Under the pieces are notes generated by a model that saw nothing but the letters and a program-made list of their open reading frames with translations, searched no databases and was not told where the DNA came from. A stretch of DNA of 35,528 bases, from the NCBI GenBank assembly GCA_016776705.1, contig JADHSW010000002.1, positions 1 to 35,528 on the forward strand. Direction: 5' to 3'. Below are positions 20,766 to 26,842 of the stretch, in pieces; positions within the stretch are counted from its first letter, which is position 1; each line of letters begins with the position of its first letter. The stretch is from Rhodospirillales bacterium (lineage in GTDB: Bacteria > Pseudomonadota > Alphaproteobacteria > Rhodospirillales > JABHCV01). Both the position numbers and the translations under genes were made by a program.

Positions 20766-22187
20766 CTACGAGACCGATTTAGGTTCTTTTATCAGGGCCT
20801 TGGAGACCATCCAGATAAACATGATACCGCCAATAATGGCGATCAGCGCGCCAATACCATTCATGTACATGCCGATTTTAGCGCCAATTTCATCAAGGCC
20901 CTGGGAGTCCCCGGCTGTTTTGCGCGGGGTGCCGTAACCACCGGCCAGAAACAAGCCGATACAGGCAAAAAACTGGCCACCGCCAAACATGTAGATTTGG
21001 GCGTACAGGGCCTTGCCACGTTCCAATTCACGATCAAGCAAGGGTAGGATCAGACCATAGAACAGGCCCATGAAGCTCAGGTTAATACCCGCGATAACGC
21101 CGTGGTAATGGGCCGGGGTGCGGGTGTCGCCGCCGTCAACGAAAAGGCCAAGAAGGCCACCGGCAGCAAAAACCGTGGGTGAAAAAGCCAGGCACAGGAA
21201 TGCCGGATTGCTTAGGGGCCAGCCATTGCCCAGACTTTTTTGCTTCACCATGTCGATCAGCAAGGGAATGCCGAACAACATGGCTGGCAAGGCTAATCCA
21301 TATTGAAAATTGGTAAACATGGACCAGTATTTTTCGTGGACCGGGGCGTACTTCAGGGTTATTGAAATACCCATACCACCATAGACGACGAGGATGCTCA
21401 TTGCCGTCAAAATAAGTTGATTATCCTCGACAACGATGTCTTTCAGGGTTAGTCGGGCCAGCACATAAAGGGCGGTGATGAGCATCGCCGTGTTGGCGAA
21501 TTGCAGAATATGGCCGCCACCCCAGAACAGGCTTTCGTTGAATTCATAGGACAGATCTTCATCAAGCAGGGTTCCCGCCGCAATAGCGAAAGAAATCAAG
21601 GCGACGCCGAAAATAAGAGATCCGCACAGTGTGCCAAAGGGCAGGGGATTTTTCCAGCGCCCTTGAGAACCAGGCAGATTAAGCAAAAGCCGCAGCACCA
21701 TCAGGCCAAGGACCGCAGCCAGCAAGGCCAGACCCGAATAATAAAGCGGGTCGGTGATGGCTGGAATGTAATTGTTCAGGGTCGCTTCTCCGCGCTCCAT
21801 AAAGGCGGGAATAAACAGCAGCAGGCAACTGGCGTAGCCGCCGATCAGGGCCGGCTTTCCCAAACCCTGCAGGCGGGGGGCACCGTTGGAAATTCTGGTT
21901 GTCGAGATATTAAGCAGGCAACCGAACACGGCTTGGAACCAGACCACAAAGGAAAAGACGACATGAATGACCAGTCCCTTGTCGAAAAAATCCAGTGGTA
22001 GGGGCAAGACACCCTCAACACCGGGAATTCTGGAAACCGCGAGCAACAGGGCGAAGACCCCGGCCATCGCCAATGACAATACTGCCAATCCGGCCCATCC
22101 GCGTAATTCTCCGGTTTGAGCGGGCGTTCTGATGGCGGAAAGGCTTTCGAGAATGCCGATTTGGGCCGTTGCAGTTTCAGATGTCAT
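20766..22187 (-). CDS. Divergent heme-copper oxidase family subunit I-like integral membrane protein (NorB/CcoN-like)
   Basis: Multi-TM protein MTSETATAQIGILESLSAIRTP...; LVIHVVFSFVVWFQA (helix II His), WGGGHILQFANTAML (helix VI His), THE helix X motif AHYHGVIAGINLSFMG; HH pair expected in helix VII not visible (VYGGMGISITLKYAPVHEKYW). Start 22187 rather than 22265. Confidence 0.75.
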   Translation of the reverse strand: MTSETATAQIGILESLSAIRTPAQTGELRGWAGLAVLSLAMAGVFALLLAVSRIPGVEGVLPLPLDFFDKGLVIHVVFSFVVWFQAVFGCLLNISTTRISNGAPRLQGLGKPALIGGYASCLLLFIPAFMERGEATLNNYIPAITDPLYYSGLALLAAVLGLMVLRLLLNLPGSQGRWKNPLPFGTLCGSLIFGVALISFAIAAGTLLDEDLSYEFNESLFWGGGHILQFANTAMLITALYVLARLTLKDIVVEDNQLILTAMSILVVYGGMGISITLKYAPVHEKYWSMFTNFQYGLALPAMLFGIPLLIDMVKQKSLGNGWPLSNPAFLCLAFSPTVFAAGGLLGLFVDGGDTRTPAHYHGVIAGINLSFMGLFYGLILPLLDRELERGKALYAQIYMFGGGQFFACIGLFLAGGYGTPRKTAGDSQGLDEIGAKIGMYMNGIGALIAIIGGIMFIWMVSKALIKEPKSVS

Positions 22188-22192
22188 TGAGG

Positions 22193-22624
22193 TCAACCAG
22201 TAAAGGGATAGATATGAATGGCCATGGCATAGACGACGACGCCGGAGATAGAGACATACAGCCACAACGGCAGGGTCCAGCGGGCAAGGCGTTTGTGGGC
22301 GTCAAACTTGCCGCTAAAGGCGCGGTAGGCGAGAAAGGGAACAATGGGTGTCAGGATCACGGCACCCAGTACGTGGGCGATCAGGATGGCGAAATAGATC
22401 GGACGAATAACGCCTTCACCGCCAAATTTTGCGAGACCGGAATTCATGTGGTAATAGACATAAACAATCAGAAAAAGCACGGCCACGCCAAGGGCAGATA
22501 CCATCATCGCCTTGTGGCGAGTGCGATCGCCAATGCGGATAAAATAAAAACCGGTTAGCAGCATTGCGATGGTGGTGGAATTCAATCCGGCGAGAATATG
22601 GGGAAACGTTGTGATTTCGATCAT
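22193..22624 (-). CDS. DUF420 domain-containing membrane protein (possible oxidase assembly factor, CtaM-like)
   Basis: FPHILAGLNSTTIAMLLTGFYFIRIGDRTRHKAMMVSALGVAVLFLIVYVYYH...IAHVLGA...AHKRLARWTLPLWLYVSISGVVVY matches the DUF420 pattern of TMs and His residues. Confidence 0.8.
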   Translation of the reverse strand: MIEITTFPHILAGLNSTTIAMLLTGFYFIRIGDRTRHKAMMVSALGVAVLFLIVYVYYHMNSGLAKFGGEGVIRPIYFAILIAHVLGAVILTPIVPFLAYRAFSGKFDAHKRLARWTLPLWLYVSISGVVVYAMAIHIYPFTG

Positions 22625-22627
22625 CGC

Positions 22628-22744
22628 TCAGGGGCCGTAGTTGATTATTTTATACATGATTGAAGCATACATAAGAATGGCAATGCCAAGTAAAATGCCA
22701 AAGATAAGCCATTTGTTGAATTTGGGCTTCGGGTTGTCAGTCAT
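22628..22744 (-). CDS. Small single-TM protein (38 aa) in the cytochrome oxidase cluster, not in the supplied ORF track
   Basis: Reverse-strand ATG at 22744 to TGA at 22628: MTDNPKPKFNKWLIFGILLGIAILMYASIMYKIINYGP*. Stop lies 3 nt before the DUF420 start; polar N-terminus plus hydrophobic helix. Confidence 0.65.
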   Translation of the reverse strand: MTDNPKPKFNKWLIFGILLGIAILMYASIMYKIINYGP

Positions 22745-22861: not shown

Positions 22862-24469
22862 TTACTTGTGGTAATCGTAAGGCGACCAGCCCGCGCTAAC
22901 CGTTACGGACTCGGTGAAGTTGCCAGGTCCCGGGGGGTTCGGTGCGTGGGTCCATTCAAGTGATCTGGAATTCCACGGGTTGGCCGGAGCCTTTTCGCCC
23001 GAGATTGCACACTTGATCCAGCCGTAAATCATGATGGCGACACCGGCGGCGGTAAGGAACGCACCCACCGTGGCGACTTCATGGTAGCCTTCGAACTGCG
23101 GGAACATTTCATAGTTCCAGTAGCGACGCGGCATGCCTTGCGGGCCGATGATAAACAAGGGCCAGAAGGTCAGATTGATGCCAGCGAAGTTCAGATAGAA
23201 CCCGATCTTCGCCATGCCGGTATCGGCCATGCGTCCGGTCATCTTGGGGAACCAGTAGTAGACGGCGGCAAACACCGCGTATGTCGAGAACAGCCCCATG
23301 ATGAAGTGGAAGTGAGCATGAATGAAAGAGGTTTCAGACAAATGCACCGTAAGCGAGGTCATGGCCAACGGAATACCCGTCAGGCCGCCAACCATGATCA
23401 GGTACAACATGGCAACACAGTACATCATGGCAACGTTGTAGGTGATTGCTGCCCGCCAAAGGGTACCCCACAAGGACATTACAACAAGGCCAACCGGGAC
23501 CGAAATCAACAGGGTTGAAATCATCATGCCGATACGAATCCAGTCCGGCATACCGGTGACATACAGGTGATGAATCCATACTTCACCACCGATGGCGACA
23601 ATGCCACCAATACCGCCATAAATGCAGACCTTGTAGTTGAAGACCGGATTCTTGGCCATGGTTGCGATGACTTCGAACATGATGCCCACAGCCGGCAGGA
23701 AAATAACGTAAACGGCCGGGTGCGAATAGAACCAGAAAAGGTTCTGGTACAAAAGCACATCGCCGCCAGCTGCCGGGTTAAAGAAGTGAGTGCCAAGATA
23801 TTTATCAAACAACAACAAGGTCACGGCGGCTGCCAGTACGGGAATGAAAACCAACTGCAGGACAAACGCTGCCAGGGTGGTCCAGACGAAGACATTGAGC
23901 TGGTTCCAGCCCATGCCCGGTGCCCGCATGTAAATCACTGTAACCAGGAAGTTGACGGCGCCCAGGATCGATGAGAAGCCAAGCAAGTGGACAGTAAACA
24001 CGTAGAACGATGTGTTCCCAGCCGTCGTCACCGCATAGGGCGGGTAGCCTGTCCACATTATGTCCGGGGTGTCGGGAATGACGATGCTGATCAATGCCAG
24101 GATAATGGCAAAGTAGAAAAGCCAGATGCTGAAGGCATTGATGCGTGGAAACGCCACATCGGGAGCGCCGATCATAAGTGGCAGGAAGTAATTTGCCGCA
24201 AACCCGGTCAGTCCCGGAATAAGGAACGCCAGGATCATGGCCGCACCGTGGAAGTAAAGCCACTCGTTGTAATCGGTGCCTGTTTCGATGAACTGGGCAC
24301 CAAGCTGTGCCTGTTCAAGGCGCATCATCAGGGCCATCATGCCGGCCACGGCGAAGGCGGCAATTGATCCAATCAGATACATGACGCCGATACGTTTGTG
24401 ATCGGTGGTGAAAATCCACTCTTTAAGGTTAAAACCTTCGTCAGCGTGGGTTGATGTTGCTGTACTCAT
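22862..24469 (-). CDS. ctaD: Cytochrome c oxidase subunit I, A2-type (YSHPxVY)
   Basis: EWIFTTDHKRIGVMYL, FWFYSHPAVYVIFLPAVGIM, VWIHHLYVTG, THFHFIMG-type motif HAHFHFIMGLFSTYAVFAAVYYWFPKMTG. Confidence 0.95.
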   Translation of the reverse strand: MSTATSTHADEGFNLKEWIFTTDHKRIGVMYLIGSIAAFAVAGMMALMMRLEQAQLGAQFIETGTDYNEWLYFHGAAMILAFLIPGLTGFAANYFLPLMIGAPDVAFPRINAFSIWLFYFAIILALISIVIPDTPDIMWTGYPPYAVTTAGNTSFYVFTVHLLGFSSILGAVNFLVTVIYMRAPGMGWNQLNVFVWTTLAAFVLQLVFIPVLAAAVTLLLFDKYLGTHFFNPAAGGDVLLYQNLFWFYSHPAVYVIFLPAVGIMFEVIATMAKNPVFNYKVCIYGGIGGIVAIGGEVWIHHLYVTGMPDWIRIGMMISTLLISVPVGLVVMSLWGTLWRAAITYNVAMMYCVAMLYLIMVGGLTGIPLAMTSLTVHLSETSFIHAHFHFIMGLFSTYAVFAAVYYWFPKMTGRMADTGMAKIGFYLNFAGINLTFWPLFIIGPQGMPRRYWNYEMFPQFEGYHEVATVGAFLTAAGVAIMIYGWIKCAISGEKAPANPWNSRSLEWTHAPNPPGPGNFTESVTVSAGWSPYDYHK

Positions 24470-24496: not shown

Positions 24497-25198
24497 TTAG
24501 CCTTCGGCCTGTTCAGCCAGCCATTTTTCGAATTCCTCGGGCGACACTGCTTCAACAGCCGTATACATTTCCGAGTGCGAGTTACCGCAGAATTCCCGAC
24601 ACGTGACGAGGGTTTCAACTGCTTCGATCGGGTTAAACCAGATGTAGGTAACCCGACCCGGCATGACATCTTCCGTCAGCCGGTAATAGGGCAAGCCGAA
24701 GGAATGGATGACGTCATCAGACGTCATCCGCAACACAACAGGAATTCCGATGGGTACTTTCAGTTCATCGGTCGTGGTGCCGTCTTCGTATTCAAACTCC
24801 CAGTACCACTGATAGCCTGTGACTTTAATTTCCATGGCGTCTTCGGGAACTGTGCGCTGATGCTCCCATACCGTCCAGCCCTTGGCGGCAAGGTACAAAT
24901 CGTCAGCCATGAAAATGGCTGCCGGGATCAGGGCCCAACCAATTGCGTTAGCTGTCGTCAAGGACTTTGCGGTCCCGACTTCATCCGGGCTTTTTGCCTT
25001 GAAGCGGATCAGCATGTAAATGGCTGCAACGATGAAAATCACACCGATAACGGTGATGTCGATCAACACCTCGTGCCAAAGTTCGTTCCAGTCGGCTCGC
25101 GTGTCGGGGGTATCTCCCGCCGCCGCAAATGCCGGTGTTGCGAGCAACAGGGATGCTGCGGCACCGTTAAGCACTGACATGATTTGCTTAAGTTTCAA
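24497..25198 (-). CDS. ctaC: Cytochrome c oxidase subunit II
   Basis: GYQWYWEFEYEDG, DVIHSFGLP, CuA motif CREFCGNSHSEM. Confidence 0.94.
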   Translation of the reverse strand: MKLKQIMSVLNGAAASLLLATPAFAAAGDTPDTRADWNELWHEVLIDITVIGVIFIVAAIYMLIRFKAKSPDEVGTAKSLTTANAIGWALIPAAIFMADDLYLAAKGWTVWEHQRTVPEDAMEIKVTGYQWYWEFEYEDGTTTDELKVPIGIPVVLRMTSDDVIHSFGLPYYRLTEDVMPGRVTYIWFNPIEAVETLVTCREFCGNSHSEMYTAVEAVSPEEFEKWLAEQAEG

Positions 25199-26027
25199 GT
25201 TTCTTCTCCCTCTCTCTTTGCCGGCGTCGGTAAAAAATTACCGATCCGGAGAACGCAGTAACTCCGAAGGTTAGTGAACCAACGGCGACAAATAATGGAA
25301 TGTTGTAGGTGTATCGACCTTCTTTGTAGTTGTAGCTGTAACAAAGGCTGGTCGCGAAATTAATGATCTCACTGGGTCTGAATTTACCCTGCTTGGCGTC
25401 GAAAACAGCCAGTTCGACGTCGTTTGACTCCACATTCAGTGAGTATAGAACACGAATGAGCCTGCCTTCGGCGGACAAGAAAAGGAAGGCGCCCGGATGG
25501 AAGAACGTCCGATCATGCGGTGACCAGAAGTATTTAAAGCCCAGTTTGTCAGCAAAAGGTTTGATTTGGTCGGGGTTCTTCATTGTGGCAAAGGTCCAGC
25601 CTTCGCCAACCTTTCTGGTTTCTTCAAGATGTTGCTTGAACACACCCAGTTTTTCCAGGCTGTCATGCTCGTCAAAGGAAATCGTCAGAACCTCGAAGTC
25701 TTTCCCCATTTTGATTTTACTAACGCCAGCAAGCCGGTCACGAAGATCGGCGTTGATGACGGAACAGCTGCCATCGCATGAATAATACGAAAGCACCAAA
25801 ATCAATGGCTTGCCCAGTTTCTCGGACAGTTTGAATTCTTTGCCGTTCTCGTCGATAAGGGAAATGCCTTTATCGACCTTGGCCCCGAGATGCTTCTGTT
25901 CGTCAATTTGGAAGACCGTCGGATCGATGTAGGATTCCGGCACACGGTTGTACTGCGCCTTTGCTGCGGTTGCAAAAAAGACGGAGCACAAAAGTATGCC
26001 TGTAATTGTATGTTGAACCCTCAGCAT
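25188..26027 (-). CDS. SCO1/SenC family copper chaperone with C-terminal TM
   Basis: LILVLSYYSCDGSCSVINADL (CxxxC) and FFHPGAFLFLSAEG (His); signal peptide from Met at 26027; C-terminal TM YNIPLFVAVGSLTFGVTAFSGSVIFY. Confidence 0.85.
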   Translation of the reverse strand: MLRVQHTITGILLCSVFFATAAKAQYNRVPESYIDPTVFQIDEQKHLGAKVDKGISLIDENGKEFKLSEKLGKPLILVLSYYSCDGSCSVINADLRDRLAGVSKIKMGKDFEVLTISFDEHDSLEKLGVFKQHLEETRKVGEGWTFATMKNPDQIKPFADKLGFKYFWSPHDRTFFHPGAFLFLSAEGRLIRVLYSLNVESNDVELAVFDAKQGKFRPSEIINFATSLCYSYNYKEGRYTYNIPLFVAVGSLTFGVTAFSGSVIFYRRRQREREKKLET

Positions 26028-26059
26028 GGTTCTGATCCGTATTCCCCCGGAATTTTGTC

Positions 26060-26842
26060 TTACCAGAAGTAAATTTGTGAAACGACGAAGAACCAGACGA
26101 CGTCCACAAAGTGCCAGTAAACAGAGGCACAAACGACAAAGGCATGGTTTGTCTTGCCCTTTAGCGCGGGGATCAGGACAGCAACAAATGTCGCCAGACC
26201 AATAAATACGTGGGACGCATGGAAGCCGGTGATCGAATAGAACGCCGAACTATATGCATTGGTTTCGGGAACGAAGCCTTCATGGATGAGGTGCTGGTAT
26301 TCATAAACTGTGCAACCCAGGAACAGGGTACCAAGCAAAATGCTGATAATCAGCCACTTGTTAAAGCCACCATTATCCTTGTTGTCCAACTTCACTTCCG
26401 CGACATGCATGGTTAAACTGGACGAAACCAGGATCACCGTCATGATCAACGGGATCGTCGTGTTGATGTCGGGCGTGCCTTCGGGTGGCCAGTTGTTGCC
26501 TGCGCTCAGACGCATCATCCAGTAACTGGCGAACAAGCCCAGGAAGATGAAAATTTCTGAAACAATGAAGATGGGCAAGCCGACGATGGAAACACCGACC
26601 ACAAGGTTTTCATGGCTCATGCCTTCCTGGACCCATTTTGCAACACCGGCAAGGATTAGCGGAACGCCAAGACCTGCACCGATGATGGTCATCATCTGGT
26701 TTTCGTAAACAAAATATCCGGAAAAGCCGATTGGAACCAACATGAAGATACCGGCGACAAGCACCAATGGCGCCCAACTGGTTTCCCAATGATGTTCGTG
26801 TTGGGTACCACCTGTGTGGGCGACTTCGGATTCTACTGACAT
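26060..26842 (-). CDS. ctaE: Cytochrome c oxidase subunit III
   Basis: SEIFIFLGLFASYWMMRLSAGNNWPPEG, YSITGFHASHVFIGL, VYWHFVDVVWFFVVSQIYFW. Confidence 0.95.
   Translation of the reverse strand: MSVESEVAHTGGTQHEHHWETSWAPLVLVAGIFMLVPIGFSGYFVYENQMMTIIGAGLGVPLILAGVAKWVQEGMSHENLVVGVSIVGLPIFIVSEIFIFLGLFASYWMMRLSAGNNWPPEGTPDINTTIPLIMTVILVSSSLTMHVAEVKLDNKDNGGFNKWLIISILLGTLFLGCTVYEYQHLIHEGFVPETNAYSSAFYSITGFHASHVFIGLATFVAVLIPALKGKTNHAFVVCASVYWHFVDVVWFFVVSQIYFW

Follow-up and report, generated by a model that had tools for sequence, protein, structure and literature searches.

The last gene of an aa3 oxidase cluster in the window (the whole stretch of DNA analysed, 35,528 nucleotides from a Rhodospirillales bacterium) encodes a protein with the fold of a heme-copper oxidase (HCO) subunit I in which the helix VII HH pair is absent. 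This HCO-like protein is more probably than otherwise a paralog of HCO subunit I that has no catalytic activity and acts in the biogenesis of heme-A (aa3) oxidase. We infer both heme binding and a role in assembly, in which the protein probably handles heme A and usually stands in for SURF1. It is found mostly in bacteria without SURF1, beside oxidase and heme-A genes, and therefore probably helps to build the real oxidase. The genes of the cluster in the window are as follows.

26060..26842, minus strand: COX3 (CtaE); Pfam COX3, E 1.5e-27
25188..26132, minus strand: SCO/SenC-like protein; Pfam SCO1-SenC, E 2.4e-4, slightly under the cut-off
24497..25198, minus strand: COX2 (CtaC); TIGR02866, above the cut-off
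22862..24469, minus strand: COX1 (CtaD), A-type catalytic subunit I, HH present; Pfam COX1, E 1.3e-119; TIGR02891, E 1.1e-158
22628..22744, minus strand: 38-aa single-TM open reading frame between COX1 and DUF420, recognized from the sequence
22193..22624, minus strand: DUF420 / CtaM-family protein; Pfam, E 9.6e-39
20766..22187, minus strand: HCO-fold subunit-I-like protein without the helix VII HH pair, 473 aa, 12 TM segments

The gene order is COX3, SCO, COX2, COX1, 38-aa ORF, DUF420 and HCO-like gene. The full aa3 oxidase gene set that the earlier note had placed beside the last of these was recovered, together with DUF420, and COX1 is an ordinary A-type subunit. The DUF420 gene ends 5 bp upstream of the HCO-like gene, in one operon with it. 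Both ends of the SCO-like ORF overlap its neighbors, COX3 and COX2, and its annotated start is uncertain. The 38-aa ORF had no Pfam match and may encode an assembly peptide or a small subunit of the oxidase.

Searches with the single window protein returned no match to Pfam COX1, NCBIfam or PDB sequences, so profiles were needed. A profile of 26 homologs matched subunit I of the T. thermophilus ba3 oxidase along nearly its entire length (E 3e-13, profile positions 35-447), and Pfam COX1 was matched by 23 of the 26 profile members (best E 5e-21). All 26 PDB matches of an AlphaFold2 model at E<=0.001 were HCO or NOR subunit-I chains or complexes, with TM-scores of up to 0.64. Twelve TM segments, co-linear with known subunits I, give the protein the fold of the HCO superfamily, to which the profile matches also point; the model is itself weak (pLDDT only 58, pTM 0.64), and ligand geometry was not taken from this model because it was built from four sequences. 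The earlier note had aligned the protein by eye to NorB/CcoN-type subunits; in the profile comparison the B-family ba3 oxidase, and not NorB or CcoN, came closest among solved structures. The helix II His, helix VI His, helix X HxH and basic pair of that enzyme are all aligned with the window protein, which lacks, unlike the enzyme, the helix VII HH and the helix VI cross-link Tyr.

For residue counts, 75 family members were aligned (MAFFT) with seven catalytic-type SAHHL paralogs from the same genomes; invariance per residue was counted in 74 members, leaving out L055. The predicted ligand positions of the window protein, assigned by alignment, are these.

21963..21965, minus strand: H75 codon, low-spin-heme ligand position in helix II, aligned with the helix II His of ba3 oxidase; invariant (73/74, a gap in the remaining member)
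21510..21512, minus strand: H226 codon, helix VI His and sole remaining His of the CuB site, aligned with LFWWTGH of ba3 oxidase; invariant (74/74)
21336..21377, minus strand: helix VII segment GMGISITLKYAPVH, with the HH columns at I276-T277 in the alignments; poorly conserved across the family
21102..21110, minus strand: H360-Y361-H362 codons, helix X HxH (high-spin proximal and low-spin ligands); each residue invariant (74/74)
20919..20924, minus strand: R422-K423 codons, opposite the propionate-binding RR pair of HCOs and aligned with VPRR of ba3 oxidase; both invariant (74/74)

As read from these alignments, the heme sites are retained and the metal-B site is lost throughout the HCO-like family. 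The heme-ligand histidines that HCOs carry in helices II and X are present as H75, H360 and H362, and the RR pair aligned with R422/K423 contacts the heme propionates in known HCOs. The HH columns of helix VII hold no HH in any of the 75 members, L055 included; the 'HHH' triplet of L055 lies outside these columns, and its helix VII reads TPVTYL. The three CuB histidines of the A/B/C O2 reductases are accordingly incomplete in every member. At helix VI H+4, where A/B oxidases carry the cross-link Tyr, 67 of 74 members have F (F230 in the window protein) and 3 have Y. The NOR-type combination of an FeB HH with Glu/Gln at helix VI H+4 (cNOR, qNOR, eNOR-like) is likewise absent, with F at H+4. H284 is the one His that the window protein has near helix VII, and it varies among homologs.

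The earlier note had located the histidines of LVIHVVFSF (helix II), WGGGHILQF (helix VI) and AHYHG (helix X), all of which are borne out by conservation in homologs. It had also read the missing HH as replaced by 'IS' (I274-S275); the absence holds family-wide, and alignment with the SAHHL paralogs moves the position to I276-T277. Its suggestion that heme ligation could be intact while two of three CuB/FeB ligands are missing, leaving either an active site of atypical kind or a heme protein without catalysis, agrees with the family-wide alignments. An HH pair hidden by misalignment was considered and rejected: the HMM alignment to ba3 oxidase and the MAFFT alignment with the paralogs agree, and no helix VII His is conserved. 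An isolated mutation or a pseudogene was rejected as well, since dozens of genomes have intact ORFs.

The HCO-like family forms one clade (SH-aLRT 99; tree outgroup, A-type COX1), apart from the paralogs that keep SAHH, a pattern that fits one loss of the CuB ligands. Carriers of the gene number 43 among 61 relatives, mainly members of the window's order, and 43 among 399 genomes sampled from the phylum, with several belonging to other classes; a 44th genome among the relatives (G019) has a NOR-like paralog only. No relatives were found in plasmid and viral collections, and no description of the family was found in the open-access literature. The NOR-type paralogs of the order are 28-31% identical to the window protein and match its motifs in helices II, VI and X. 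They differ in retaining HH, in carrying Q at H+4 and in branching as a clade of their own. In several relatives these paralogs (L035, L036, L038, L039, L042; motifs WWGMGH, SAHHL, GHFH) are a second enzyme of the HCO type. Their neighbors, where read, include COX2-like and SCO genes (L035), a SCO-like gene (L039) and CtaB (L038).

The phyletic pattern was examined in the phylum sample of 399 genomes, of which 304 have CtaA (heme A synthase) and 261 have SURF1, all 261 with CtaA. The HCO-like gene is present in 35 of 43 CtaA genomes without SURF1 and in 6 of 261 with SURF1 (Fisher p 5e-32). The genomes are not independent, and counting the same contrast by family, which corrects for kinship only in part, gave 11 of 15 families without SURF1 and 5 of 61 with it (p 8e-7). 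The sample of relatives gave a weaker contrast (39/45 without SURF1, 2/5 with SURF1; p 0.035). Neither SURF1 nor the HCO-like gene was present in eight CtaA genomes of the phylum sample and six of the relatives. Among 68 carriers searched at E<=1, none had SURF1 above the cut-off; there were ten weak matches, all under it. Divergent SURF1 overlooked in carriers was rejected as an explanation, as of the two weak matches checked, one of which represented a set of four similar ones, one was a TonB-like protein and the other an antisense ORF. The exclusion has exceptions. Operons of G009 and G017 (COX3-SCO-COX2-COX1-DUF420-HCO-like-CtaB-SURF1) have both genes, and six of the sampled SURF1 genomes likewise carry the HCO-like gene, so the HCO-like protein is not a strict substitute for SURF1.

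DUF420 and Cox11 were also compared between carriers and SURF1 genomes. DUF420 is present in 34 of 40 HCO-like carriers versus 0 of 40 SURF1 genomes, and Cox11 in 12 of 40 versus 39 of 40. The result looks like two alternative maturation kits, SURF1 with Cox11 and DUF420 with the HCO-like protein, along with mixed cases. DUF420 excludes SURF1 in the same way, and the SURF1-like step could therefore be its own. This exclusion within the phylum, seen when G033, G051 and 38 other SURF1 genomes were set against 40 carriers, is an observation in its own right and may be relevant to the still unsolved function of CtaM.

SURF1 is a heme A-binding protein proposed to chaperone this heme into subunit I; the route of heme A insertion is unsettled (PMC9145763). 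Both SURF1 and the HCO-like protein occur with CtaA and aa3 genes, in nearly complementary distributions, yet the two are unrelated: SURF1 combines a large outer domain with two TM segments (PMC9145763). The window protein gave no match to the SURF1 domain PF02104; a SURF1-like mode of working is suggested by context. CtaM is required for active aa3/caa3 in Firmicutes (PMC4958251, PMC9145763), where a heme-chaperone role was the first proposal (PMC4958251). DUF420/CtaM shares the phyletic pattern of the HCO-like protein and is its adjacent partner in the window's order, but belongs to a different family, with 4 TM segments.

A non-catalytic role in oxidase assembly is favored over an atypical active site by genome context and phyletic pattern. 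The HCO-like protein would have a cavity like that of subunit I and bind there one heme or two, probably heme A supplied by CtaA. Unable to hold CuB, this cavity would not turn over with O2 or NO, and the protein could store or present heme A without oxygen chemistry. It may then pass heme to nascent COX1 or template COX1, doing the job of SURF1 together with DUF420/CtaM. More specifically, in a reading a little less likely than not, the dead copy of the catalytic subunit is proposed to be a heme-A insertase or template that, with DUF420/CtaM, replaces SURF1 (in other classes also Cox11) in several proteobacterial lineages.

Gene neighborhoods bear on this proposal and on its rivals. Within the window's order, 36-158 bp separate DUF420 from the HCO-like gene in all 26 genomes that have both, and the two are usually within aa3/CtaB clusters. 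CtaB, Cox11, SCO and COX1-3 are recurrent neighbors of the HCO-like gene. As to whether homologs always co-occur with DUF420, a check the earlier note had proposed, they nearly always do so in this order, and adjacently; elsewhere this is frequent, and some carriers have no DUF420. Outside the order, CtaA is within 1 kb of the HCO-like gene in 13 of 26 mapped genomes, often divergently and in several lineages, and the HCO-like gene is almost always found in genomes with CtaA. This would suit a partner of CtaA, a two-heme membrane protein that takes or gives electrons in heme A synthesis and does not hand heme to COX1. Such a partnership is nevertheless improbable: most CtaA genomes (261 with SURF1) lack the HCO-like gene, and within the window's order its ties to DUF420 and the COX genes exceed those to CtaA.

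Less probable again is a copper-side factor that works with DUF420/CtaM in loading CuB of COX1 through H226 or other residues. The adjacency of DUF420, the 2026 proposal of copper export by CtaM as a step in building the oxidase of B. subtilis (PMC13344008) and the absence of Cox11 from 28 of 40 tested carriers speak for it, but the copper ligands are those lost and the heme ligands those kept, and Cox11 occurs together with the HCO-like gene in 12 of 23 tested carriers of the window's order. Heme insertion fits the kept residues and the SURF1 pattern best, ahead of both a CtaA partnership and copper handling.

A catalytic, atypical oxidase or NO reductase, with a second metal on H226 and non-canonical ligands, is very unlikely. 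H226 and E218 are conserved in the family and related paralogs of catalytic type exist, but helix VII ranks among the least conserved regions, the family alignment offers no alternative conserved ligand there, the H+4 Tyr/Glu is missing and the gene is tied to COX biogenesis genes. Least probable of all is a place within the aa3 complex, as an accessory heme subunit with a structural or gas-sensing function; the gene shares one operon with COX1-3 in the window but is often unlinked to COX1 and linked instead to CtaA or CtaB, in a distribution complementary to that of an assembly factor (SURF1).

The role of a widespread family that is nearly complementary to SURF1 and resembles its COX1 target is directly testable. 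In annotation, the HCO-like genes match COX1 profiles but need to be kept out of counts of oxidases and NO reductases. A subfamily with a C-terminal TPR domain (L106:1295-3091, L108:1064-2983, L107, L091) likewise lacks the helix VII HH, and the fused and stand-alone forms are both present in some genomes.
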